Positions 11,417-52,955 of a stretch of 64,000 nucleotides of DNA are shown here, piece after piece (within the stretch, counting starts at the first letter, position 1; each line of letters begins with the position of its first letter). This DNA is from Isoetes taiwanensis. Taxonomy: Eukaryota; Streptophyta; Lycopodiopsida; Isoetales; Isoetaceae. The position numbers and the translations under genes were made by a program. The notes under the pieces are model-generated. The model made no database searches and was not told the DNA's origin. It worked only from the letters and a program-made list of their open reading frames with translations. The stretch is from contig JAJEKV010000003.1 of the NCBI GenBank assembly GCA_021234155.1, positions 15,794,386-15,858,385 of the forward strand, given 5' to 3'.

Positions 11417-11640
11417 TTATGCACTTGATTTGGAGGTGGGAACTTTCCCTAAATTCTCATAATAGCGTAGCTCCACAAAATGAACACCATGGAATGTCAA
11501 ATGAATAGGCATCATGGCTTGCACTCCATAAATCAATTCAAATGGTGTAAATCCACAGCCCAGCCAACTTGTAGGTACACCTATGAAACTCCATAAGGCA
11601 CATGTAAATACTGTATATATTGGCATACCAAGATCCACGG
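11417..11640 (-). pseudogene. Gypsy integrase C-terminal fragment
   Basis: The minus-strand reading contains GFTPFELIYGVQAMMPIHL, the hallmark just after the integrase core in Ty3/Gypsy elements (typically TPFELVYG followed by LP). The reading runs straight from the RNase H-side sequence into this motif with no room for the HHCC finger or DDE core, so most of the integrase is missing. Confidence 0.85.
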
Positions 11641-11649
11641 TCTCTCAAA

Positions 11650-13060
11650 TGAATCCTTGTAATACTCCATTATCCTGAAATACTACTTGGTCGGTTTTGT
11701 TTCCTCTTCTATTTCCAGCACCACTACTCAAATAGGCACTTGGATTATGAGCTCATTTGAGCCATCTTAACATACTTCAACTCAAATTCTTGTATGATAA
11801 GAGCCCATCTTGTAAACTTAGGATCTCGGACGGAGTCTTGTTGTAAATGCATGGCAATGGATTCACATTTATATGAATGTATGATATCTTTGTACAATTG
11901 TTGAATTCCATTGTGAAGGGAAGAAGATAAATCTAGAATTTATTCAAGATCCACTTCAATGCCAACCCAAGATGCTCCACATCGTCCATTTACGCTCTTG
12001 TGGAGTTAACAACACTGCTAGCATAGTAATTCACATTATAATGCTTTTGCTGATTTTTTTGACATAGTGTAACATAAAGCTTGTTCCCAAATTGTGAAGA
12101 ATAAATGAAATGGCTCACTTATTCTTGGAGGAATCAACAAAGTTTCTCTTTCAATTGACCAAAGGCACCATTCAAATTGCTTCTTGAGCCTCCTCCTTCT
12201 ATCTAAGATTCTGCCCTTGCTTCATACAATCCACAAGTGGTTTGGGTTACTTTAGCAAAATTGTGCAAATACCTCATACCTAAAACTGAGCTGGCCATAT
12301 AAGCTTCTCACTTGTGACATTTGTAAGTGATTTCACCTTCTCCAAGGCTGCAATCTTACCGGGATCACTTGTAACCCATTTTCTAAAACATAATTGCCCA
12401 ATAGTTTTCCCTTCTAGTGAAGAAAATACACTTAGGGGATTCAAACTTATGCCATACAATCGGCATAGATCAAGAACTTTTTCTGAGATGATCCAAGTGA
12501 TTCCTTCTTGGATTAGAAAACATTGTTAAATCATCTATAAAAACTCTTAAAGAAGTCTAAAATATCATAAAAAAGCATGTGTCATAGCTGTTTGAAACTG
12601 GATGGAGCATTTGTGAGGCCAAAGGTAATACCTTATAAGCATAGATGCCAAAAGGTGTTGAAAAGCCATTATTGCTTGATGTGGTAGATAAATTTGGATC
12701 CTATTATATCTGAGTAACCATCAAAAAGAATAGGCCTGATTTCTAACAATATCCAACAAGGTGTCTATGAATGGTGTAGAAAAATGATCTCTTTTAGTAG
12801 CTTTGTTGAGATTTACGTAATCAATGCATACTTTCGGATTGTGATATTTGGCTTTCTCACTGGTACAATAGAATTGATCAATCTGAATTTGGCAGTGCAA
12901 TAAATTCCGCCTCTAAAAGCTTCTGACTTGACCTTTACTTGCTCCTCTATGCATTTGGACTCATTCTCCTTTGAGCTTGTTGAATTTGGTTTTAATCCTT
13001 GTTTGAAATTAATGGTAGGAACCACAACCTCTGGTAGAATGTCTTTCAATTCTCTTTGTA
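11650..13060 (-). pseudogene. Gypsy RT/RNase H, copy A
   Basis: On the minus strand near 12.83-12.78 kb the RT motif beginning CIDYVNLNKATK is readable with shifts, followed by the FLDGYSG-like region. Downstream near 12.33 kb is the segment equivalent to the RT thumb-to-RNase H junction (VTSDPGKIAALEKVKSLTS-like). It is broken by multiple frameshifts and is not translatable as one protein. Copy B at 13.4-14.8 kb is its tandem partner. Confidence 0.75.
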
Positions 13061-13199
13061 ATTTCTTGCCAAAGCATCCACGAATTCTCTTAATAAAGAT
13101 ATCAAATCACCTTCCTCCTCTTGAGTAAGATCTCCTCCAATAGTAACCAATTCTTCTTGATTTCCTTGAGAAATATTGATGTTCTTGACTGAATGTGTT

Positions 13200-13345
13200 G
13201 ACTATAATAAATGTGGTGAGTGTGGTAACATGTGGTAAATGTGATGACTATGGTGAATGTAGTGACAAGATGAATATGATGAATATGGTGTGATGATGAA
13301 TGTGATGTTGTGGTGAATGTGGTGTTGTGATGAATGTAATGACTT
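13200..13345 (+). repeat. GGTGAATGTG minisatellite, copy A
   Basis: About 145 bp of degenerate units such as GTGGTGAATGTGATGA. On the minus strand it reads as His/Thr-rich peptide. It sits just upstream, in element orientation, of RT copy A and is part of the 1.75-kb duplicated unit. Confidence 0.9.
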
Positions 13346-13399
13346 GTAAGTCTTGTAAAATGTGTATATATTGGCATACCAAAGATCCACGGTCTCAAT

Positions 13400-14830
13400 G
13401 AATCCTTGTAATACTTTCCATTATCAGAAATACTACTTGCTGGTCTGTTTCCTCTTCTATTTCAGCACCACTACTCAAATAGGCACTTGGATTATGAGCT
13501 CATTGAGCCATCTTAACATACTTCAACTCAAATTCTTGTATGATAAGAGCCCATCTTGTAAAACTTAGGATCTCGGACAGTCTTATTTGTAAATGCATGG
13601 CAATGGATTCACATTTATATGAATGTAGATATCTTGTACAATTGTTGAATTCCATTGTGAAGGAAGAAGATAATGTCTAAATTTATTCAAGATTCCACTT
13701 CAATGCCAACCCAAGATGCTCCACATCGTCCATTTCCTCTTGTGGAGTTAACAACACTGCTAGCATAGTAATTCACATTATAATGCTTTGCTGATTTTTT
13801 GACATAGTCTTAACGACCAAAGCTTGTTCAAATTGTGAAGAATAAATGAAATGGCTCACTTATTCTTGGAGGAATCAGCAAAGTTCTCTCTTTCAATTGA
13901 CCAAGGCACCATTCAAATTGCTTCTTGAGCCTCCTCCTTCTATCTAAGATTACGCCCTTGCTTCATCTGATCCACAAGTGCGTTTGGGTTACTTTTAGCA
14001 AAAATTATTTAAAATGTCCTCATACTAAAATTTGGACTGGCCATATAAGCTTCTCACTTGTGATACATTTGTAAGTGATTTCACCTTCTCCAAGGCTGCA
14101 ATCTTACCGGGATCACTTGTAACCCATTTTCTAAAACATAATTGCCCAATAGTTTTCCTTCTCTAGTGAAGAAAATACACTTAGCGAGATTCAAACTTAT
14201 GCCATACAATGGCATAGATCCAAGAACTTTTCTGGGAGATGATCAAGTGATTCCTTCTTGGATTCGAAAAATTGTTAAATCATCTATAAAAACTCTTAAG
14301 AAGTCTAAAATATCATAAAAATTTGAAATCTGGATGGAGCATTTGTGAGGCCAAAAAGGTAATACCTTATAAGCATAGATGCCAAAAGGTGTTCGAAAAG
14401 CCATCATTGTGCTTGATGTGGTAGATAGATTTGGATCTGATTATATCCCCGAGTAACCATCCAAAAAAAAGAATAGGCCTGATTTCTGCAACAATATCCA
14501 ACAAGGTGTCTTTGAATGGTGTAGAAAATGATCTCTTTTAGTAGCTTTGTTGAGATTTACGTAATCAATGCATACTTTCGGATTGTGATATTTGGCTTTC
14601 TCTTTGGTACAATAGAATTGATCAATCTGAATTTGGCACTGGTACAATAAATTCAGCCTCTAAAAAGCTTCATGACTTGACCTTTACTTGCTCCCTCTAT
14701 GGGTGGACTCATTCTCCTTTGAGCTTGTTGGACCGGTTTTAATCCTTGTTTGAAATTAATGGTAGGAACCACAACCTGCGGTAGAATGTCTTTCAATTCT
14801 CTGTAATTTCTTACCAAAACATCCTGAATT
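13400..14830 (-). pseudogene. Gypsy RT/RNase H, copy B
   Basis: The minus-strand ORF at 14647-14441 contains VCIDYVNLNKATKRDHF followed by FFLDGYSGI. These are RT motifs of Ty3/Gypsy elements (CVDYRDLNKAT and FLDGYSGYNQI in relatives). Continuing downstream, LKERTLLIPPRISEPFHLF-like sequence marks the start of the regular RNase H. Several frameshifts interrupt it. Confidence 0.85.
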
Positions 14831-14943
14831 CTCTTAATAAAGATACCAAATCACCTTCCTCCTCTTGAGTAAGATCTCCTCAATAGTAACCAATTCTTCT
14901 TGATTTCCTTGAGAAATATTGATGTTCTTGAATCCAATGTGTT

Positions 14944-15130
14944 TGTAATAAATGTGGTGAGTGTGGTAACATGTGGTAAATGTGATGACTATGGTGAATG
15001 TAGTGAGTGAAGTAAGAATATGATGAATATGGTGGTGATTGATGAATGTGATGGTGTGGTGAATGTGGTGAGTGTGATGAATGTAATGACCGTGGTGCGG
15101 AGTTGATGTTGTGGTGAATGTGGTGACCGT
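14944..15130 (+). repeat. GGTGAATGTG minisatellite, copy B
   Basis: The longer counterpart of the array at 13.2 kb, with the same unit family (TGGTGAATGTGATGA). It separates the upstream RNase H domain from RT copy B. On the minus strand it reads as runs of His, Ser and Thr. Confidence 0.9.
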
Positions 15131-20267: not shown

Positions 20268-21477
20268 TCAATATAATTTCCTCAAAGACAAACACCATTC
20301 AAGGGTTTCCTTCCGACAATCAATGTTACCTTCCTTTGAACTCACGGTGCTAGAAAAAAGTTGATATGGTACAAGACAATACTTCAGGAACATAGCATTT
20401 GTGGTCCTTTTACATCTTTTTTTTCTTCCATCAAGAATCCTGGATATTTGCAATCCTCTACTAAATGCTTGATTAAATAGTAAAGCGTTTGAAACTTCGG
20501 ATACAAAGGGAAACCAAGCAAGGATGGCAACTGGGGTAAAAAGGACTAAGGCCATGACAAATTCATATGCTTTCGAGCAAGAGATCTTACATAATCCCAA
20601 GTGTTGAAACGCGATAAGTAATGGTCTTGTTGCAAGACTAACCTGTTGATTGTAATTTCAGTCGACTGCACATTGCATACTTAATCAAATGACATGGCTC
20701 TATAATTACCTGCAATAATATCTAGCCTGTTGGCATGAATGCAAAAATGCTGACGAAAAGGTCAACGAGAGTTAAATCGACCACCACAAAAAGAATAATT
20801 ATGATTGAAACAAATCCAACAAACTGCAGAGCCTTTAGTAATCTGAACATTAGTAGAAGGTCACCACTGAATCTTTTTCTGCCCATTGAGACAATCTACA
20901 TATGTAAAGACAAGCTCAATCTCAGAAAATTACAAAAGATACAAAAACAAATAATAACACATGGCAAAAATACAACCTTCAACACAATGAGCACAGCCCC
21001 AACAACGAGCAAAAAGAGACCATAAATCTGCAAGACAATGATGATTCAAAGCTCAATTAATTGATAAAAATCCATGGCAATACCAAATAGGTTTCATGCT
21101 TACGGTTAAACTCTTATGGCCATTTGCAACATGCAAATGGTAAACAAGTCCATATTGGTACAGAAGAAAGCGAATATTCAGTATTATTTCCATAAACCTG
21201 CCTCTAAGGCCTGCATGATTCATATACTCTTGCTCTTCATCCCACCGTGATTCCCAACTCTTTGATGCTGGAACTCCTATGCCTCCGGATTGTTGATCCA
21301 TTTATTCCAATCATCCACAATCTTTTTGCCACTCAAATTTGGATGGGTTGAACAAAAATGGGGCAAATAACCAGGTAGCAACCAAGAACCACATGGAAAA
21401 GGTAAACAAAATGTATACAACAACACCTTTTGCAGATGGGCTATAGGCACTATAAATAATTAACAGCATGAGCAGCT
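20268..21477 (-). pseudogene. callose synthase (glucan synthase-like) C-terminal exons, frameshifted
   Basis: Four minus-strand exons encode the C-terminal membrane part of a plant callose synthase (1,3-beta-glucan synthase, plasma membrane). Exon 21477-21104 contains GVPASKSWES, EYMNHAGLRGRFMEI and LLYQYGLVYHL. A 51-bp exon at 21027-20977 reads IYGLFLLVVGAVLIVLK. Exon 20895-20727 reads IVSMGRKRFSGDL through IFAFMPTG. The last exon (about 20640-20268) contains YEFVMALVLFTPVAILAWF and LLFNQAFSRGLQISRIL. Most splice sites are good (GTAAGC donor at 21103; AG acceptors), but the donor after FMPTG is GC rather than GT. Exons one and four carry single-base shifts in short homopolymers, such as CGAAAGC where the family needs CGAGC. 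The N-terminal and catalytic parts are absent, so this is a fragment; consensus errors could explain the shifts. Confidence 0.9.
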
Positions 21478-22034
21478 CTATTCATGGCTCCTAGAATAAA
21501 CAGTAATTTTTGGCAAACTTTCCATGCCAAACTACAAAGCCTCTACCTGTGGGCCTGTACCAGACTATTGTTATCGATCATTTCTTACATGGAGGATGGA
21601 AGCAACCAATCGAGCTGACCACATGGTTTAACCGTTGAATGTATGCTAACCTCCTCGATTAAGCCCAAAGTCTCCAGAATTGACATTGTAACTCCTTAAC
21701 TTACTGACAGGAGCATGTATTCCTCCAGCTGATTAAGAATAAAGCCAAGTATTACCTTCTGAAAAATTCAACTCAGAAAGAGCTCTGACTGTCAAAGCAA
21801 AGATGAAATAGTGGAGTATCTTACAGATAAAACGAAAGAAAAAATACTGAAAAATTAACAAGTTTTTTTCACTGAAGCAAAACTTGGTTCTAGATGACGA
21901 AACCCATGTTCAAGAAGTCAGATATAAACAGTTAAGAATAATGCCAAGCTGTTTACTGAAACATATACTTTTAGAATTTCCCCCCATATGTGGTTTACTA
22001 GAATTTTCAAATGAATGTGGTTATCAAATCTTAC

Positions 22035-24021: not shown

Positions 24022-25440
24022 CTAGGTCATAAAAGCAACCTGCATGTCCAAGAGGTCAATCATGCAATTAATGTGAACTATGTTTGGCATTAGACCATGA
24101 CAAACTTCCATATCTTTGAGATATTGGATGCCCTCTTCAACCAGGCCTGTACAAGTGAATGCAGTAAGAATAGCACTAAATGTCATTTCATTTGGCCTAA
24201 TGGCATTAGCTTGCATTTCCTGAAAACACTATGCAGCCAAGCCTGCAAAGCCACACTGGCAACTACGAGATCGAATTGCAACCTTGCCTCAATTATTTGC
24301 ACATGGATCCATCTTGCCTTTGTATGCATCTTGTCTTTCGCCAAGATATTCTTAAAATGCTCAAAATGTCACTTTGCCAGGAGGTATCCCACCTTGCTAC
24401 ATTGCCTCGAAGCATTCGAAAGCAAAGCATACTTGGCCATTCTGTCCATACCCTGCAATCATTGCATTCCATGAGACAACATCTCGATTCAACAAATTTT
24501 GAAAAGCTTTATGTGCTTGCTCCAAGCATCCACATTTAGCATACATATCAACAAGAACATTCCCGCAATCTTGTCAAGTAGGATCCCATTCTCGAATACT
24601 CACTCATGTATCGCCTACCCCTGTTTCTAAGGAACCCAAGATGCCATATGCTTTCAAGATCTTTGGAGAATGTAGCATTGCTAGGCTTTATGCCATCCCC
24701 GCTTCATTCTCTCAAAACAATTGAGGGTAACACAAACCTTGCCATCTTTCAAGATAACACGCAATTATTGCTCCCCGTGTCCTCATGTTCCAGCCTAGGT
24801 GTCCGTCGAAAATGCGGAGGCCACCTCCAAGTCCCCACATTTGGCATACATGTGAACCATGGCATTCGATACTACTACGCCGGTGAAACCCATTGTGGAG
24901 CACTGTTCATGAGCGCACGGCTCGCTTCTCTGAGAACCCATGTTTCCACATGCCTTTAATATGCTAGGCAATGTGAATACATATGGTTTTGTGCCTTCAA
25001 AGGACATTGAATTGTGAAATTGAAGAGTAATATCCATCTCACCAAATTTTGCATGTCTATCAATAACCATATTCCGTGTGTCTTGACTAGGTTTCTGACC
25101 TTCTTGAATGCTCGATTTGCATCAATTAAATTTCCATGAGAGGCAAATAGATGAATCAAGGGCTCAACTAAGAAGGCAACGAGTCTAGGTTAGAGTTAGC
25201 TAATAATGATGGTGACTTGCCTACAAATTGCCAAATCTCCATATCTTAAACATTCCTGGACCAAGCAATGAGCAAGATCTTTCTATATAGAAAAACCCTT
25301 ACCTTGTTGCTGATTATGTTCTGCAAACTGAAGGGCTTGATCAAATATTGAACGTCTACTGGCATCGTGGAAATGCGTAGCAGCAAAACCTGTAAGTGCT
25401 TTTAGTACTGAAGATTTAGTAACGGCGAATCAGCAAATTC
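24022..25440 (-). pseudogene. PLS-class pentatricopeptide repeat (PPR) gene fragment
   Basis: PPR proteins bind organellar RNA; this fragment cannot make one. On the minus strand in order: GFAATHFHDASRRSIFDQAL as a splice-bounded piece (about 25409-25320); then FASHGNLIDANRAF; then KPYVFTLPSILKACGNMGS and VVVSNAMVHMYAKCGDLEVA; then DVVSWNAMIAGYGQNGQ; then RPNEMTFSAILTAFTCTGLV with GIQYLKDMEVCHGLMPNIVH. These are the L, S and terminal P/E-like motifs of a plant PLS protein. At least five frame changes are needed and no start is seen. The fragment lies directly next to the second callose synthase exon copy. Confidence 0.85.
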
Positions 25441-25444
25441 AAGT

Positions 25445-25904
25445 TAAATTTGAGGCCTTGCCTAGACAATGCCTAAACAAATAATAGCACATGACAAAAA
25501 ATACAACCTTCAACACATAAAAATGCTTACAGTTAAACTCTTATGGCCGTTTGCAACATGCAAATGGTAAACAAGTCCATATTGGTACAGAAGAAAACGA
25601 ATATTCAGTATTATTTCCATAAACCTGCCTCTAAGGCCTGCATGATTCATATACTCTTGCTCTTCATCCCACCATGATTCCCAACTCCTTGATGCTGGAA
25701 CTCCTATGCCTCCCGGATTGTTGATCCATTTATTCCAATCATCCACAATCTTTTGCCACTCAAATCCGAATGGGTTGAACAAAAATGCGGCAAATAACCA
25801 GGTTGCAACCAAAAACCATATGGAAAAGGTAACCAAAATATATACAACAGAACCTTTTGCAGATGGGCTATAGACATTGTAAATAATTAACAGCATGAGC
25901 AGCT
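25445..25904 (-). pseudogene. duplicate of a callose synthase exon
   Basis: The minus strand 25904-25531 repeats the callose synthase exon seen at 21477-21104. It is uninterrupted from MLLIIYNVYSPSAKG through FEWQKIVDDWNKWI, GGIGVPASRSWESWWDEEQ and LLYQYGLVYHL. It keeps the AG acceptor and GTAAGC donor. Similarity to the 21-kb copy stops within a few bases of the exon start. Downstream, the 51-bp exon and the intron before it are deleted: sequence jumps from just past the donor into GTGTTGAAGGTTGTATT, the end of that small exon plus the next intron. This copy is in frame where the 21-kb copy is not. Confidence 0.9.
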
Positions 25905-25921
25905 CTTCAAATTCTGCCTGT

Positions 25922-32697: not shown

Positions 32698-33129
32698 GGA
32701 AAATTACCAAAATATCATATTAAAGTTTGCCAAAATTATCAAAATGCCACTGTATTTTGGGAAAGTTGGCAATAACGTTTTCTTAACGATCTGAATGCAA
32801 ATGTGCCCTTAGAGGAATTGTAGATTAAGCTGAGATTTTTCCAACAAGCATAAGATCATCTTGATTGGAGATAAAAATTTCAAGTTATAAGCTCTTGAGT
32901 TCTTCAGAATTTGAGAAATGAAAAATCTCATAACTTGAGATTGTGGTCTTAGAATTGAATGATCTTATGCTTCTTGGAAAAATCTCAACTTAAACTACAA
33001 TTCGTCTGAAGGGCACATTTGCATTCAGATCATTGGAAAAACGTTATTACTAATTTTTTCAAAATACCACTGGGTTTAGTAACATTTTGGTAATTTTGGC
33101 AAACTTTAATGGTATTTTGATAATTTTCC
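32698..33129. mobile_element. foldback MITE with long terminal inverted repeats
   Basis: Left end GGAAAATTACCAAAATATCA and right end (as complement) GGGAAAATTATCAAAATACC begin inverted repeats of about 170 bp. These also share CTGAATGCAAATGTGCCCTT and GAGATTTTTCCAA..AGCATAAGATCAT. Only a short spacer separates the arms, so the element of about 430 bp can fold into one hairpin. No ORF. I could not identify a target-site duplication, so the superfamily is open. Confidence 0.88.
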
Positions 33130-41359: not shown

Positions 41360-43542
41360 TCATGGCCTATATCGAGATGATCCTCGTCTAGCAATATTTG
41401 CCTTATGTTGAAGTCCTTTTAAATGAGAGGATTGTCTCACTGAAGATGGTAATGCTCCAGAAGATGCCAATAGAACGACCACTCCCATCAGAATCAAAGA
41501 CCTGATAGCCATTATAACAACTTCAATTTCATTGAACCAGACATGTACAACAAAGACCAAGCAGGAAGAAACGACCATCACACCATCCAATAAATAGTAA
41601 CTTCCGTGCTGTAGGAAGGGACTCCCCTAGTGCAAAGATTCCAACAATTACACCAACCAGCATAGATGCAACAGCAGCGCATGTGGAGATAATCACTGCC
41701 CTTCCTTCCTTGAGACCTTTAGTCTGCAAATGGAGTCCCATTCTTTCGTCAATATACTACAAAACATCTATCCAAACGTTATTAAGGTAATCCATTGCTT
41801 TGACATTGTAGTGGTTATACCCCCTGCCCAGAGGATGCTTAACTAAGATTCTGCAGGAGGAGTTTCATATTGAAAACGGACTTGAATCACCAATAACAAC
41901 AGGTATATATAGATCAGAGAAGATTAGATGCCAACAAATGACCAATGCAAACTCACCTGGAAAAAGAACCCACAACTGCTGCAAGCCATACCAACACCTA
42001 ATCCAATTAGTATACAAAAAGTTGGAAACCCATTAACTGCCAAGTTAAATCCCAACTTGCAGAAGGCAGCTGCCAATCTGCATGGAAAAGATGTTGCGCA
42101 TAGTTAAAGCCTGCCAAGCAACAAGCTTCTAATCACAACATCATCTCTACCCGAAAAGAATGCCAGCCTCAGTTCCTGCAATTAACTCTTCCATCACCTC
42201 AAGATGGCTCTACAATACAGAATAAAAATATAAAGCAGACAAAAACATCAAGCATAGAAATGGCATATACATTAATAAATAACACTTAAACCAGCATTGA
42301 AAGCTCTGATGTAGGAGAGCCAAGAGAATCATAGCCATGACGCCGTTGCCTTTGAAAGTGCACTAGCCATCTTTCTAAGAGCCCCTAATGAAATAAAACA
42401 GAGGGTTTTAAAATAAATAAGTCAAAGCACGAAAGAAACTCATAACAGCTTCAATGGCCTAAAAAACTTTACGATGCCTAGTTAATGGCTAATACACATG
42501 TTACAAACTGGGCATCCGTTTTTTTCCCTGTAATATTGAATCTTCAGCTTAGCATAAGGCTTGTCAAATGGTTGATTTATGACGATCAATCAATGATCAA
42601 AGATAATCTAATAAAGCACTTACAATAATCAAAGTGGAAGCGCATACAAACAGGAGAAGCCGCACTGGGGATATGTTGCTCTCAATCTGTGTTTCACCAA
42701 CCATTCCAACACCTGGGAATGCCATCAAGATCACATTTGCATACTAAGCCCATAGCAAATGAAGAACGTGTTATTAAGTTAATCCACTATTAATAATTGC
42801 AGACCACACATCAGACATGACGAACAAGCAAAACAATTGCTATTGACGTAGATATGAAGAGTAGGCTCAAATGTATCCTGGCTACTCAGAATCCATATCA
42901 TGTTTTGTTTATGATCACGAAAGTAAACAAACTCTAAAAAAAGCATACTTACAAACTGTTCCAATGATGGTCATAGTTACACCAATCCAGTCAAGGCCAT
43001 GCATTTCTTCCTGCAAATAACAATGAGAAAACAGAGCCAGTACCGCCATCCCACAACCAGAAACAGGCTGAATAATTGAGACCTGTGCAGCAGAGCAACA
43101 AGGTAAAGCAATGCACATGGTAAACACAATTAAAAAAAAAAATACTCACACTTCCTGGCTGGCCTATTTGTGGACCAGCCAAGGAACGGTTCATTGAAAG
43201 CTTTACATAAAGTTGGGTTACCAGAAAAATTGGTAAAGGTAACATAGCTCAAAGAAAAAAAACAGGTGATTCAAAAGAAGTGTTAACCAATATAATCCTG
43301 ACTCACGCAACAGGACATAGTTTATCGAACAATTCTGCTCCCAAAAACCGTGTTGGTGTATTTATATCCTTTGCAATATTCTTTGTATTGTCCTCAATGA
43401 TATCCAGCAATAAAGAAGCATAAAAAAGAGAGAGAGAATTTACTGGTGCTTCTGCTACAGCCTTTACCATCAAGATCCCCCCAAAAATGTCAATAATAAT
43501 TCCACTGACCCAGGTTTTGCTTGATAAATAATGCTGTAAAAC
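41360..43542 (-). CDS. NIPA-type magnesium transporter, 5' part not found
   Basis: Eight minus-strand exons join in frame: 43542-43444, 43082-42953, 42712-42624, 42384-42292, 42209-42151, 42077-41957, 41723-41584 and 41501-41360 (stop at 41360). All introns have GT-AG ends. Motifs: [20 protein letters not shown], then [70 protein letters not shown] and [11 protein letters not shown]. This is the NIPA/DUF803 family (related to plant NIPA9), polytopic membrane proteins implicated in Mg2+ movement. The final helix ([15 protein letters not shown]) is followed by a basic tail. The first one or two transmembrane helices, with the start codon, were not found up to about 47 kb. The resolved part has no frame defect. 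Confidence 0.9.
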
Positions 43543-44980: not shown

Positions 44981-44988
44981 TATACAGG

Positions 44989-45073
44989 AAAGGCAATCTA
45001 CTTGCCTTCCCTGGCATGTCAACAGAGCGCGGAGCCCTGTTGACATGCCAGGGAAGGCAAGTAGATTGCCTTT
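44989..45073. repeat. perfect 37-bp inverted repeat (11-nt loop)
   Basis: 44989-45025 is the exact reverse complement of 45037-45073, and one mismatch further out the pairing continues for several bases. The loop is 11 nt (45026-45036). Each arm itself contains a smaller hairpin, GGCAA-TCTAC-TTGCC. The same small hairpin occurs at 52852-52880 beside a related MITE. Confidence 0.97.
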
Positions 45074-45079
45074 ACTGTT

Positions 45080-45336
45080 ACGTGGAAAACACTTAGGGAT
45101 CATTCTGCGCCCAGTAAAATCCTTCAGAATGCAAGGTAAACTCTTGGAATGCAGGGTAAAAGAGCCGGAATGTGGAGTAAAACCTGAGAATGCATGTAAA
45201 AAGGTTGCAGCAGCCCGCCATCGCAGCTCCGTCGTTCAACGCAAAATTTTACTTACATTCTTGTTTTGAAACGCCGCCACGTGGCATGCTACTACTGGCG
45301 GATGTGGCAGAATGATCCCTAAGTGTTTTTTACGTG
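45080..45336. mobile_element. MITE-like element 1 of a hairpin-flanked family
   Basis: About 257 bp. Inverted ends: left CGTGGAAAACACTTAGGGAT followed by CATTCTGC; right, read as complement, CACGTAAAAAACACTTAGGG followed by ATCATTCTGCC. On the left side inside the end there are four degenerate units of about 20 bp with core GGAATGCAGGGTAAAA (45125-45200). No ORF. Element 2 at 52626-52847 has the same plan in inverted orientation. Confidence 0.88.
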
Positions 45337-47690
45337 TTCGGAATACATACTCTCAATCGAGTGCTTGCTGCTTAATTATATTAGGTTTTTACACTGCTAA
45401 AATGTGTCTAAAAGGCAAGTTTATGTGTCCAATTTATATATTCTCAATCAAGTACTGTTTGATTATATTAGGTTTCTACATTTTTTTGAGGAGTTAAGGG
45501 CACAACATGTGCTTCCTAGCTATTGTCAAATAGCTACGATTCATTTTATTTTTTCCAACATGATATTGCAAGGACTATACAATACATCATAAGTTACCAA
45601 ATGTATGGGGGGCAATGGAAATTGGGGAGCCCTCTAAAGTTAGAGAGTATTGAAACTCAAACGCCACTAGGAAGCTAGCTTGCTCTTTTATAGTTGTATC
45701 GCCATTATCTCAAGAAAACTTGGCTTATTGTCTCAAGTTTATCCTTACATGACGTTTTAAGGGCCATCCTTCTGCCAAGAAGGCCATGTGTTGTAATAAT
45801 ACTGAGTGCCACATATAGAACAGTTGTGAAATAAGCCACAGAGATAAGTAAAAGCTTACACTGTACACCTAGGCATTGCAACACGGTAAAGGATTTTTAT
45901 TGATAAAAGCCCCTACACACTTAGATTCGAAGATCATCCATTCGTACCTGGTCCAACGGAGACTCAGCCGCAATACTGCAACCAATTGCAACGAACGACA
46001 CCGTTTCTTTCTTGGTCCTCATAACATAAGTTACTGGATCATCCGTTTGTTTGCAAAATCCAATATCAGAACCTTCATCTTGCAGAATTCTAAGCAAAAA
46101 AAAGGTAAAGAACAGAAGACCCTTTCAAATCTAAAGGCCTCGCTCAACAAATCTGCAAATACCTTGCCTCAATTGGCTCCTTAAGAATGGCCAGGAGAAA
46201 TAGAAACAAAAAGGAAGCAGCCACATATGAGAGGTGTGAATGGGGCAGTCCAACAGCCACGGGATACTGAATCAACAGCTCCTCATAACTATGTTTAAGG
46301 AACTTCAAGGAATTCGCACAGAAAAAACTGTGCCCCATCACACTTCTTTTAATTTGGAAGTAAGAAGCTCCTATTTCTTTTGCACAGTGACCAAATCCCC
46401 TTTCACAAATCATGACTCAACAGTCAGTTGCATCAGGTAAGGATTACTCTTGGCAATGTCATCCACTGAAATAGAGCTACATCTGCAAATTTGGTTGCCA
46501 TGGCAAAGTCGGAAGAGAAACGTCCACAAAAAGAAAATGAAATCTCGGCAAACCATTCAAACTCCAGTTCAAAAGCTTAGCTATGAAGTGAAACCTCCAA
46601 AGACTGTCGAACTGTTGCTAATGGGCATGAAGCCGAAAATAAACGATTGCTTCAAATTTCAAGGTACGCACAGAACTTCCTTAATTGTAGCGCTGATCAA
46701 ATCGGAGCTTTGTGATGCCTTCCTAAACCTCAATGAAAAAAATGCTCAAAACAGACCTAACCTGAATGCCGATTAAACTGAACCACACCATTTATCCACG
46801 GCTGGTACATCCGAGCATGGTCGCCTACAACTACAGTGTTGATTTAAGCAGCACCCATTATATATAAAGCTGAAAAATAGGCCGAAGAATTGGTTGGAAA
46901 CTTCGAGAAGAGATATAAAAGCTTCTCGAATACCATACCGTGTTCTAGAATATACATGTCACATGATCGAAACTTCCAGAAAAAACTGTCCAATTTAGTT
47001 CATAATTTTCCATAAAAAATACAGACAGCTAAGCTGCCCCTTACCTTCCATATTACAATTATATATTAGAGATAAGACATGTCTTATATTCACAATTTTC
47101 CACTACACAAAAATGTTGTCCCGTGGACCATTTGGTCCATGGACCAGAAATGTCCACCATACCCCTTTGCACTCAATCCCATAATCCCATAATTCGCCCC
47201 ATCTATTTATCATTTTCAACTTCTAATTGCATAGTCTTATTGTCAACTTGATTTCCTATGATCTCCCAAAAATTGGTGGCAAACGGATTTGTGTGCAGCA
47301 TTTTTGGATGATTTGAAAAAGGCCAAAATTGGCCTTTTTTAGAAATCTTCCCACTCATTATTCCCGTTGCGTGCCCTTTTTTGTTTTAGTTAGTTAGGTA
47401 TCTTCCCCACAGGAGAAGCAATGACGGCAGTCCCGCCAAACAAAAATGGCGCGAATGAAGGAGGAGGGATCGTGATTTTATGAACGGCGAATATAACGCC
47501 ACCTCAGATCATTCCTACGGCTGAGATTACAGCCCCAAATATTGCCGTTTCTTCCCTAAAAGTAGCTCTGATAACAGAGCTTTGGAGAATGCCGGATACT
47601 TGTCCCTTCGATCCTTTTTTTCTCCCACGATTCTTCACCATTTAGCCTCAAATTTGTTGCAACGGGTAGCTCACGCAAGAGGAAACTAGG
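45337..47690. other. interval before the piggyBac ORF
   Basis: No identified gene. Minus-strand readings at 46413-46144 and about 46100-45950 (ILQDEGSDIGFCKQTDDPV, VSFVAIGCSIAAESPLDQ with a GTACGA donor) look like possible exons of an unknown gene. A 14-bp palindrome TAAGACATGTCTTA is at 47073-47086, a CACTA-like terminus at 47101, and a hairpin AAAAAGGCCAA/TTGGCCTTTTT near 47319-47342. Confidence 0.4.
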
Positions 47691-47713
47691 AGATGATTTT
47701 TTCAAGCAATTAG

Positions 47714-50090
47714 TTGGTCGAGAAATCTTGGTTCCGACTCTTGAATTTGGAGCAGAGTGGGCACATGAAAAGTTCTTCGAATTTGCTTCAGAAGTTACTC
47801 TTCCAGGTCGGATTTGCTCATACAATTGCAAGAAGAAGCTCTTTGAGATATTTTTTGAAGAAGACAATTATGCAGTTAAATTGGGGGCAAATTGAAAGAT
47901 TTTTAGTTCCAGAGGTTGAAACAGCCAATGAAAAGCTTGAGAAAATGGAGAATCATCCTGAAAAGACCCTTCTTGCAGCCAAAGGGAAAGGTATTCTAAG
48001 CGAAAATGAAGATTCAAAGGCAAATGAGGAGGATGAAGATACAGATTTGTTGGATGATATTCCTATTGGTGAACACAGGTAAGGAATCGAGTGGCCAAAT
48101 TTGAGTAATTCTTTCAGTCAATTTCAGAAAAGAAGAGATAGTCTGGATTTCATTGATCACATGCATTTCTTATATGAAAGGGAAAGACAGAGTAGCCCTT
48201 ACAAACATGTTCTTCCTGATGGTATAAAACTGATGACCCCTATTGAAGCACAGCCTTTCAATACTCTTTTACCTAGTATGAAACCAGTGGTCTCTGATGC
48301 CCATCCTCTAAATACCAGCCACCAGACATTGCTGATAAAGCAGTAAATACTGAGGCCACGGTTAGTGATGCTTCCAAAACAGTAAATGCAGAATCTTCCC
48401 ATAATCTTCATGGATGTTTTGATCCTCCACATCCCATTTACCATACTTTTGCTGCTATGGAAGATGTAGAAGATGATATAGATAATGTTGAGGATGTCAT
48501 AGAGGATGCAGATTATGAACCTTTAGAAGATCAAGCCATTGAGAAGGAGGATGAACCTACTAAAAAACGTGGCAGACCTAAGAAGAAGAAGTGCATGGCT
48601 AATATAAAGAAAGAGGGTAGTAGAGGACGTGGTCGTCCACACAAGGATTCACTTGATGATGGTAAAGCCTCTTCCAGGAATGCAAAACTACTTGAGGATC
48701 CAAGTATTGTAGCTTCTACATCAGCAAATGGGGAAGAATTTGCAGAGGATGTCATTTATTCAAGTGATGAAGACAATGAGCTCCATGAATTTGATGATTT
48801 ACAGCTTGAAAGAGAGGGTTCTGCCTTACGGGATGACGTAGATGAGGATGAATTGCCTGGAGCTGAACCTAGCACTGCTGCATGGACACTTGGTAGTGGT
48901 TCTTTGCCTCATAATCTACTGCAAAAACTTCCTCCTTATGAGTGTGAAAGGGGTCCAGCCTTTAGAACAAAAAGAATGTCTCCTCTCCAACTTTTCACGT
49001 GCTTCTTGTCCCATGCAATGATGTCCCAGATTTGCCAAGAGACTAATCGATATGCCGATGAGGTAAGAGATAAGAATAGAAGAAAATTTCAGTCAGTTAG
49101 AAGCTGGTCCCTTGTGGATGTTAGCACTTTGTTCAGGTTTTTGGGTCTCGTTATTGCTATGGCATTGAATCCATACAATAGACTTCAGTCTTATTGGCAA
49201 TCGGGTGAAGTAGGAGCTGTTAATTGGCCAAATTTTGGCAGGTTTATGTCACTTAAAAGGGCTCAGCAAATCAAGAGATTCTTTCATCTCAGAGATAATA
49301 ACCTACACCCATTGGACAAGACAACCAGAGGATACAAAGTTTATCAAGTTGAGAATGTTAAAAAAGAGTGGAACAAGAGATTTTTTGATCTTTATACAGC
49401 AGGAAAAGAGGTAACTGTGGACGAAAGAATCATACCTTCTCGGAATGCAATGAACCCCTTACGTATCTATAACCCAAAGAAGCCACACAAATTTGGGATT
49501 CAGTTATGGACCCTTTGTGATTCTGCAACAGGTTACTGCCTGCAATTTGAGATATATGACAAGTTGAAAAGAGAGGAGGGCTTGGGATTCCACGCAGTGT
49601 CAAATCTAGTGAAAAAGCTTGGACCAGGCCATCATGTATTCTTTGACAGGTACTTTACAAGCATGAAGCTGCTGCAATGGTTGTCGAAGAGAAAGCTAGG
49701 TGGCACCGGAACTGTTAATCCTAACAAAACCAAAATGTTTCCTATAAAAATGCTTAAGTTTGAGGGCAAGAAGAAGGAAATCCCCAAAGGTTCTCATAAA
49801 TTTGCATATTGCAAGGATTCTGGTGTTGTAGTATCTGCATGGCAAGACAAAGAGGCAATACTTTTTGCCTCCAATGTGCACGGAGTAGAGATGTCTTCAG
49901 TTATGCGCTTGTTGGAGAGAGGCAATCGCCAATGTGTGTGGCTGCTCCGAAAATTGCAGTGGCATACAATGAGCATAAGGCTGGTTGCGATGTACATAAT
50001 AAGATGTGCTTGGCATCTAATTACAGTTTGGAGAAAGAGCTTATTTCATGGAAATGGTGGCATGCATTGTTTTGGTCCTTTTTAGATTTT
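47714..50090 (+). pseudogene. piggyBac-type transposase with AT-hooks, frameshifted and 3'-truncated
   Basis: The main ORF (48457-50085) begins with an acidic stretch and two AT-hooks (KKRGRPKKKK, SRGRGRPHKD). The DDE_Tnp_1_7 domain follows: LSHAMMSQICQETNRYADEV, FRFLGLVIAMALNPYNRLQS, MSLKRAQQIKRFFHLRDNN, VTVDERIIPSRNAMN (first Asp), KPHKFGIQLWTLCDSATG, and HHVFFDRYFTSMKLL (second Asp). Near 49915-49930 the frame must shift to give PKIAVAYNEHKAGCDVHNKM, with the third Asp in the GCD that replaces the usual GVD. Homology ends at WWHALFWSFLDF (about 50090), without the C-terminal cysteine-rich domain. Acidic ORFs upstream (47714-48082, 48101-48346; LNWGQIERFLVPEVETANEK) probably are the N-terminus, split by a stop or an intron (GTAAGG at 48079). 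It could be a domesticated gene remnant. Confidence 0.92.
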
Positions 50091-50712
50091 GATCTGGGTA
50101 TTCTACCGATCTGGATATTCTGCCGATTGTGGTCGATCTGGATTTTGCAGCTAAGCTTGGAATTTTGGGAGATCTGCCAGATCTTGATGGAATCAACGAA
50201 ACTGAAAAGAGGTTTTTCAGAAACGAAATTTCAAAGATTAGATCTCTCCAAATTTTTTTTTTCAAAAGCATTCCTTCAACTATAGGTTGTATGAATTGAA
50301 TAGTTCTAGAAATTGTAGTTCTTTGTGTGAATTGAACAGTTCTGGAAATTGCAGTTCTGATGTGAAGATTAACAGTTCTGAAAATTCTGGAAATTCTGGC
50401 TTTTTCTTTCTACAACCAATGCTCTTCAATCCCGAAGGACATTCTTCCCATTTTCCTTAGATTCACATGTCCAGATCTGTCTGATTTCTCCACAGAGATC
50501 TTTGTGTTCTTGCTGTTCTTCCATGGAGATCTTAGTGTTCTTGCTGTTCTTCGTTTTTTATGTAATGCAGTGGAAAAGCAGAAAATATAAGAGGTGTCTT
50601 ATATATTAAGGACATGTCGCATAAATATTAGTGGAAAGGTTTTTATCTGAGACATGACATGGAGTCTTATATGCTATCTTATTGCATTGCGACAAACATA
50701 TTTTATTCATGC

Positions 50713-50801
50713 CATGGAAAAAGGGCCTGAGCTCGCAAGAAACTTTACAAAGTTTCTCAGTGAAAACCTATTTTTACTTTAAGTTAGGCCCTTTTTCCAT
50801 G
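50713..50801. repeat. 16-bp perfect inverted repeat
   Basis: CATGGAAAAAGGGCCT at 50713-50728 pairs exactly with AGGCCCTTTTTCCATG at 50786-50801, 57 nt apart. It could be the ends of a tiny foldback element or a cruciform. It lies about 620 bp after the piggyBac homology ends. Confidence 0.93.
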
Positions 50802-51505
50802 AGCTGCAAGTATTATATTTCAGTAAATGGATCGTGGCCACATAAATAAGGTCTTAAACTCGTTTTTCCATGACTAGGTTTAAGACATGTCTCATGAGGC
50901 TTCCTACAACAAAGTAGTCTTTTTTTTTTTCCGGGAGAAAACCCTTGCCATAAAATAAGACACCATTCTTCCATCAATCAAAACCACTTTGCTTCTTTTA
51001 TTTCTGCCTCAAATCATGCTCCACGCTTGGATCAAGAGGATGCGACATGTCTTATTTGTAGCAGTGGGGAAGTGCTCTTCATAAGAGATACAACAAATCC
51101 AATGTGGCAGTCACAAACACTGTCGCAAATATATACGACATCCACAGTTTGCCCTTGCTGTGGAGAAAGGGCCATAATCTTTATTTATATTATATTTATA
51201 TTTATATATATATATATCCTCCTATATATAAAATTACTATTTGGTTTTTGGAATTATAAATATCTAACTTTCCGGCATAGAATTAGAGTGGTTTTTGGTT
51301 TTTGGAATTATTGACTTTTTGGAATGATTTTTACGGTTGTGTTTTTCGGCCGCCCAAATTTTGACTACACCAAGCTCTTCTGTAGTGGTAAGCCCGCCAT
51401 CTCCAAGCCCGCTGTCGCCTGTGTGAGGTGTGAAAACTGATGAAAATCTCGTGAATCATTGCTTCCTCTTTCTCCTTCTTTCATGTCTTCTTCGCTACCG
51501 CTGTT

Positions 51506-51575
51506 ATTTCATGACGAACTCCCAAACTCTTCCCCAGCACATTTCATGACGAACTCCCAAACTCTTCCCCAGCAC
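51506..51575 (+). repeat. perfect 35-bp tandem duplication
   Basis: ATTTCATGACGAACTCCCAA through CCCCAGCAC occurs twice head to tail (51506-51540, 51541-51575) without differences. Confidence 0.97.
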
Positions 51576-52625
51576 GAGGAGTGGATTCATCAATCACTTC
51601 CTGTTGCAAATAATAAAAACATTTAACCCAGCTATACAGAAATTGACAGAAAAATCTGTCCAAAAACAGACCCAGAAATGCATATCCAATATAAAATCTA
51701 TCACAGAAATTTATCACAAAAATCTACCCACAAATTTTCAACTTAGGCTTACCGGAATCAGAGATCTTGGCCTCGCTTCTCCAGCCAAAACCACCATCTC
51801 AATCGTGCCCGAACTCGAAATTGTCTGTCCAAACAACTTAATCCTCGGATAGGACCCTGCCGTTTGCAATCTGGCTTCTGATGGCCAAGCCTTTCTTCCA
51901 TAATCCATTTCCTCACCTTCGACGTGTTTCGCCATATCTCTCTCCTCTGTAATTTCTTTAGGAGTTTCAGCACTGGGCAGATCTATCTTATCATGCCCTC
52001 CATCGTTCAGATCTTTTGCCTGTAATTTTCTCCTCTTTCAAGCGCGAAATGCTGGATCTGGTGCTTCCATTCATATAACTAGCCCCAGGTAATCTACGAA
52101 AGAATCTTGTTGCAGAGCCCATTTTCGGCTTAGATCAAGCTCACCTTTGAGGCCATAGTTGTGTAAATCCGTGCAAGGGGTAGTTGAGCAAAGATTTGGT
52201 TGCATGCGTGGGCAAGCAATCTTCGTAGCACAGAAGTATCATATGCGGATTTTTGGCTCTGGAATCAACCTTCCCCGAACGGAGTTTTGAAAAATTGCTG
52301 CACAGAGGCGCCAGAGGCAGCACAACATGCCACATATGTGCGTTTTGCTGTTAGATCTAAGAGCACACTCGGTGCTTGGCTTCCCAAAAACGGACCAAAG
52401 TTATCTACAAAATTCACAGACCAATTGAGGAGGATTGGCAGGAAAGCTAAAATCGAAACTTCTCAAGTCCGGCAGGGAAAAAGAGCAGAAAGGGTTAAAT
52501 AAGAAAGGAAGGCCTAAAAAAAGAGGGCATTTGTGGGCAACAGAGCTTGGGCATAGCTGTGGAGGGCGCGCGCAAAAATACGAAGGGAGAAAAACGAATA
52601 AAAAGTCCTTTGCTTTTCCCCAAAC

Positions 52626-52847
52626 CGGAAAAAACCATTGGGCTTCATTCTGCCTTCCCATCCAATCAGATCACGACACATGGCAAGTTTTCTTTATCTG
52701 AAAGTAGAGCAAGAATAGAGCAAGAACAGCGGCAGTTTTTTACCTTCCTTCAGCCGATTTTACCCTCCATTCCGTCGATTTTACCCTCCATTCTGTCGAT
52801 TTTACCTTGCATTCAGCAGCAGAATGAAGCCCAATGGATGTTTTCCG
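52626..52847. mobile_element. MITE-like element 2 of the hairpin-flanked family
   Basis: About 222 bp. Left end CGGAAAAAACCATTGGGCTT then CATTCTGCC; right end as complement CGGAAAACATCCATTGGGCT then TCATTCTGC. Near the right end are four 21-bp units with core TTTTACCCTCCATTC (52737-52812), the complement of element 1's GGAATGCAGGGTAAAA units. It is oriented opposite to element 1, and the related hairpin lies outside its right end. Confidence 0.88.
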
Positions 52848-52851
52848 TATA

Positions 52852-52880
52852 CAGGAATGGCAATCTACTTGCCATTCCTG
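52852..52880. repeat. perfect 12-bp-stem hairpin with TCTAC loop
   Basis: 52852-52863 pairs exactly with 52869-52880, with a 5-nt TCTAC loop. The counterpart inside the 44989-45073 palindrome has GGCAA-TCTAC-TTGCC preceded by AGGAAA and followed by TTCCCT, so stem positions differ. One pair (TGGCAA/TTGCCA here, AGGCAA/TTGCCT there) has changed on both sides. Confidence 0.95.
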
Positions 52881-52896
52881 GGATGGAAACAGGGCG

Positions 52897-52955
52897 ACGC
52901 ATATATATATATATATATATATCTATTATCTATTATTATTATTATATATATACAA
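52897..52955 (+). repeat. AT-rich microsatellite
   Basis: (AT)n followed by (TATTA)-like units directly after the MITE/hairpin block. No coding value; overlapping Ile/Tyr repeat ORFs are artefacts. Confidence 0.93.

Follow-up and report, generated by a model that had tools for sequence, protein, structure and literature searches.

Two homologous blocks in the 64,000-nucleotide window (the whole stretch of DNA analysed here) were interpreted as copies of a single short non-autonomous DNA element (about 270-305 bp) that were inserted separately and have diverged. Judging from the sequence comparisons below, I give this reading a probability of about 0.65. Block A lies at positions 44984-45335 (352 bp), and block B lies on the opposite strand to A at positions 52624-52900 (only about 275 bp). 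In a preliminary description of this DNA, two homologous blocks of about 350 bp each were said to face each other across a piggyBac transposase gene, A being placed at 44989-45336. The inverted pair was confirmed near those positions, while the size holds for A and is too large for B. When A was aligned locally with the reverse complement of B, the score was 115. The maximum was only 32 among 500 dinucleotide shuffles and 34 among 1954 other pieces of the window compared on both strands. In a blastn comparison, A and B were aligned over 175 columns with 70% identity (E = 5e-16). Since these scores are far above those of the shuffles and of the other window pieces, the likeness is not due to chance between AT-rich sequences, a possibility that the preliminary description had named as fatal to the pair. 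Both blocks also fold into stable structures; the z-score was -13.1 for A (0 of 100 shuffles as stable) and -6.3 for B (0 of 200).

As shown in Table 1, the homology is modular. In the 5′ to 3′ direction of the element (the minus strand for A and the plus strand for B), the order is end 2, filler, four iterons, end 1, hairpin, and terminus. Common to A and B are the hairpin segment (score 55, with 0 of 1000 shuffles as good), inverted end 1 (score 24, 1 of 1000), the four iterons (score 60, 0 of 1000), whose units align in order, and inverted end 2 (score 26, 1 of 1000). On the other hand, the filler beside end 2 shows no likeness between the two blocks (score 14, with 521 of 1000 shuffles as good), and the sequences outside end 2 are not homologous (score 15, 896 of 1000).

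Table 1. Features of blocks A and B and of the piggyBac sequence between them (positions in the window).
Feature	Position	Strand	Remarks
Block A hairpin	44984..45078	-	Arms 44984-45028 and 45034-45078, 45 nt each, 96% complementary
Block A inverted end 1 (hairpin side)	45080..45108	-	27/29 to 45307-45335; homologous to B end 1
Block A four iterons	45127..45202	-	Starts 45127, 45147, 45168, 45188; homologous to B iterons
Block A inverted end 2 (inner side; presumed 5′ end of the element)	45307..45335	-	Homologous to B end 2, with no homology beyond
piggyBac, candidate extent	47066..50609	+	Inverted match 47072-47107 / 50566-50602, very tentative
piggyBac transposase frame	48298..50082	+	PF13843, E = 7e-50; ORF from ATG, E = 5.5e-50
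Block B inverted end 2 (inner side)	52624..52653	+	Inverted match to 52819-52848; homology to A
Block B four iterons, 21 bp apart	52737..52814	+	Units read on the minus strand; starts 52737, 52758, 52779, 52800
Block B inverted end 1 (hairpin side)	52819..52848	+	Inverted match to 52624-52653; homology to A
Block B 12-bp stem with 5-nt loop TCTAC	52852..52880	+	12/12 Watson-Crick pairs
Block B terminal tail after the hairpin	52881..52900	+	Homology to A ends at about 52896; (AT)n from 52901

It was found that each block has its own pair of inverted ends, as the preliminary description had proposed; those of B match at 26 of 30 positions without a gap or at 27 of 29 with one gap. When end 1 is compared with end 2 inside one block, there are 23 identities in 25 columns for A and 24 in 27 for B, while the ends compared across the blocks have 21, 21, 19, and 20 identities in 27-28 columns. 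Moreover, in the 17 ungapped end columns, all four A-B differences occur in end 1 and end 2 alike within each block. The same two homology edges, the unrelated fillers, and the paired end differences thus suggest that a block is a unit with its own matched ends. The better match of the ends inside the blocks than across them favours two independent copies over the ends of a composite element. The boundaries of the element rest on one comparison, that between these two copies.

The preliminary description gave each block an outer hairpin, which is complete only in A. The whole A hairpin matches its own complement at 88 of 95 positions. Each of its arms holds a smaller stem around TCTAC, and these nested stems pair at 11 of 12 and 10 of 12 positions. 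In contrast, B has a single arm with the nested 12-bp stem, which is followed by (AT)n. It was revealed that the outer arm of A matches the terminal 50 nt of B at 43 of 50 positions (E = 6e-12 with a two-block profile) and that the homology of B ends within a few bases of the centre of the A hairpin. Because of this coincidence, the hairpin centre would be the terminus of the element. The outer arm of A may be an additional copy, in inverted orientation, of the last 50 nt of the element, perhaps derived from a second copy. The large hairpin of A was probably formed when the terminal 50 nt of this second copy were joined tail to tail. Since both blocks have the homologous hairpin in the same position, it is part of the unit.

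Four iterated units of about 21 bp, also noticed earlier, are present in both blocks with a spacing of 20-21 bp. The A iterons resemble GAATGNAGGGTAAAA with 2, 0, 2, and 3 mismatches in order of start. TRF reported the B array as 3.9 copies with a period of 21 bp and gave no row for the A array. When up to three mismatches are allowed, the iteron motif has 32 matches in the window, eight of which are in the blocks; with up to two mismatches, six of the seven matches are in the blocks.

How might such an element move? No coding sequence was seen in the A/B unit, and thus its movement would depend on a trans-acting protein of an element located elsewhere. The iteron spacing of 20-21 bp corresponds to two helix turns, so that the iterons lie on one face of the DNA. 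The protein would bind the four iterons, then pair the two inverted ends, and cut or stop at the hairpin end. Rolling-circle elements of the Helentron/Helitron2 type are likewise laid out with a hairpin on one side only, beyond one of the inverted repeats. For this reason, a rolling-circle mechanism of the Helentron/Helitron2 type is preferred by analogy; it is unproven, and I would put its chance somewhat below even. The 5′ flanks of the blocks are 27% and 30% T and hence not T-rich, and the 3′ flank of B is an AT microsatellite. No Rep or helicase gene was identified by Pfam searches of 10 of the 174 listed ORFs of the window and a few others. In view of the excessive length of the inverted repeats, the T content of the 5′ flanks, and the lack of a known autonomous partner, the blocks are better called "built like" Helentron/Helitron2 than members of that group. 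It is also conceivable, if rather unlikely, that they represent a rolling-circle (Helentron/Helitron2-like) family of a probable land plant, in which the inverted ends are unusually long, the four iterons are helix-phased, and the terminal hairpin can become doubled tail to tail, as though copied via a hairpin-ended intermediate.

Ranked after the rolling-circle mechanism is the idea of ordinary cut-and-paste MITEs, Mutator-like or hAT-like for example, in which the 24-29-bp inverted ends are the boundaries of the blocks and the hairpin lies outside. It overlaps with the main reading and differs in mechanism. Long inverted ends are common in Mutator-like and hAT-like MITEs. In addition, the core of A is flanked by a perfect 7-bp direct repeat, TTACGTG (8 of 9 positions over 9 bp), which could be a real target duplication. 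However, this TTACGTG lies between the hairpin and end 1, in a stretch over which A and B otherwise run collinear. Since ACGT is palindromic and abuts the end inside the stretch shared by A and B, the repeat may be end sequence. No target duplication was found around B; the one repeat there is TTTTCC, and its right copy falls within an end of B itself. Moreover, the hairpin, as part of the unit, speaks against blocks bounded by the inverted ends. A cut-and-paste origin is less likely than not, though only a little less likely than the rolling-circle mechanism. The preliminary description had proposed a search for target-site duplications, which yielded one repeat of doubtful meaning at A and none at B. 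It had also preferred two insertions of a MITE-like family. The internal evidence (common edges, unrelated fillers, paired end differences, and the lack of a convincing duplication bracketing the pair) supports the two insertions, while the name MITE is not established in the strict sense: no duplication was found around B, and the one-sided hairpin suits an element of the Helentron/Helitron2 type no less well.

A and B face each other with their hairpins outward, as the ends of one element would. It was considered whether they could be two long inverted termini of a single 7.9-kb element, in which piggyBac is either a later invader or the transposase of the element itself. The presence of a transposase between A and B agrees with this, as does the fact that secure ends belonging to piggyBac itself were not found. 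The inverted orientation with the hairpins outermost on both sides agrees too, yet one in four random pairs would be arranged likewise. In contrast, neither block has homology to the other on the inner side beyond end 2, and a matching end pair exists inside each block, while the end-1 repeats of A and B are identical in only 21 of 28 columns. The A-B pair is not bracketed by a convincing target duplication; at the outer edges of the interval (stretches of 38 and 46 bp), the direct repeats were only (AT)n matches and two 5-mers inside the elements. A single composite element is thus improbable.

If A and B are two separate copies, what is the piggyBac sequence between them? The presence of the transposase, reported in the preliminary description, was confirmed (Table 1). 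The ORF has a DDE_Tnp_1_7 transposase domain and matches piggyBat (9c0f, E = 6.9e-25) and piggyBac (6x67, E = 3.9e-14). The C-terminal part of the domain was found only in another frame (49809-50285), with an E value of 0.014 and below the curated cut-off. Thus, the gene is broken or spliced. This is probably a separate, decayed transposon between the blocks. The candidate ends of piggyBac were aligned over 37 columns with 78% identity (E = 0.07), and two other matches had the same E value. There is a TTAG near the left edge and a TTAA near the right edge, and only 8 of 40 positions agree when the ends are anchored exactly there. Because of these ties and the poor anchored agreement, little weight is put on the candidate ends. 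Among 288 pairs with an exact TTAA on both sides, a design that leaves the TTAG candidate outside, the best agreement was 7 of 13. When 4896 relaxed pairs were compared, the TTAG/TTAA candidate was not among the 12 listed. Five sites in the window (44733, 47076, 50611, 50884, and 51044) carry the palindrome GACATGTC, all of them within 6.3 kb around the piggyBac frame; it is possibly a motif of piggyBac or of another repeat. PiggyBac copies are already on record for the fern Ceratopteris, in a repeat table of PMC6890710.

That A and B are non-autonomous derivatives of the intervening piggyBac element, as their proximity to it and the coral piggyBac-linked MITEs with conserved interiors described in an excerpt of PMC2872659 might suggest, is extremely improbable, because there is no TTAA within 30 bp of five block edges and the block ends are unlike the tentative piggyBac ends.

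The surroundings of the blocks were also inspected. When the A-B interval apart from piggyBac was searched against Pfam with eight queries that overlapped in part, a single match was obtained, and it was below threshold (E = 0.17). Two short open pieces on the minus strand between the blocks (45930-46416 and 51741-52037) have plausible splice signals and no Pfam match, and are perhaps exons of a host gene. A sub-threshold EamA/NIPA-like piece at 42918-43145 on the minus strand may be an exon from a gene for a membrane transporter. Farther away, two LTR-like direct repeats (21096-21479 and 25523-25906; 94.5% identical over 385 columns) are located 4.4 kb apart, and a PPR-like piece (24798-25121, minus strand) lies between them. 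A PPR_2 match in the window was just over its cut-off (E = 3.9e-7); with the sub-threshold EamA/NIPA matches, it points to a land plant as the host, although this falls short of proof. A tandem duplication of about 1.75 kb with 91% identity occupies 11603-15090.

Are there further copies? The two-block profile found none in the window beyond A, B, and the extra arm of A (best other E = 0.11). A MITE-like inverted repeat at 32785-33034 (arms matching at 24 of 25 positions, span 250 bp) was considered as a third copy and rejected as unrelated, its scores against the blocks being only 17-20. In non-plant collections, no matches were obtained in viral contigs for the hairpin, iteron-pair, and hairpin-plus-end patterns, in genome contigs for two hairpin patterns, or in plasmids for block A. 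Since exact patterns catch only close copies and the collections are non-plant, these negatives say little. A search of the window against Rfam gave nothing at curated thresholds. Among the matches listed in searches of the literature on Helentrons and Helitron-like elements, no plant family was recognised as A/B, and searches with motif strings of the blocks retrieved only papers unrelated by title. One paper, known from an excerpt (PMC10619864), was discarded, the word "piggybacking" being its sole match.

If the family is multicopy and moves by rolling circle, it may be a kind of short plant repeat that is missed by finders of target duplications and of CTRR ends alike, and the paired end changes could serve as a clue to its mobilising protein. 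If not, the blocks simply add another small repeat family beside a dead transposon.

Finally, the blocks were compared with known systems. They resemble plant MITEs (Mutator-like and hAT-like, from their generally known features) in being short and non-coding, with inverted ends and a stable hairpin fold, and differ in having no reliable target duplication and a hairpin outside one inverted end. The piggyBac superfamily is represented in the interval by its transposase, while the blocks themselves lack edge TTAA and show no piggyBac-like ends. In canonical Helitrons, the 3′ end is CTRR, which is absent from the tail shortly after the hairpin in both A and B. According to the available part of PMC5148889, Helitron2 elements such as FoHeli of Fusarium have asymmetric inverted repeats and a terminal hairpin, as A and B do. 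In contrast to the blocks, which have a hairpin at one end, FoHeli1 and FoHeli2 are described there with a hairpin at both ends; also, no Rep-helicase gene was seen among the window ORFs examined.

HINE/DINE-1 elements, which are non-autonomous Helentrons, offer a close parallel in layout. In the excerpts of PMC4067079 and PMC7492417, they are described as having no coding sequence and two inverted repeats of 11-15 bp, the first located at the 5′ terminus or close to it and the second inset from the 3′ terminus, with a palindrome between the 3′ repeat and the terminus and, in some, central tandem repeats. The inverted repeats of A and B are 24-29 bp, about twice that length. The iterons are short (20-21 bp), and the T-rich or TT target without duplication that is typical of HINEs is not clear in the blocks; duplication is absent at B and doubtful at A. 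On the other hand, if the termini deduced from the two copies are right, the 5′ inverted repeat of A and B is at or near the terminus and the 3′ one is inset. The palindrome corresponds to the 12-bp stem of B and to its two less perfect copies in A. Central tandem repeats, frequent but not obligatory in HINEs, are represented by the four units of each block. About 48-52 nt separate end 1 of B from the terminus, a distance inside the 38-60 given for mite HINEs in an excerpted source. A and B are at most a new family, probably built like kinds of element that are already known.
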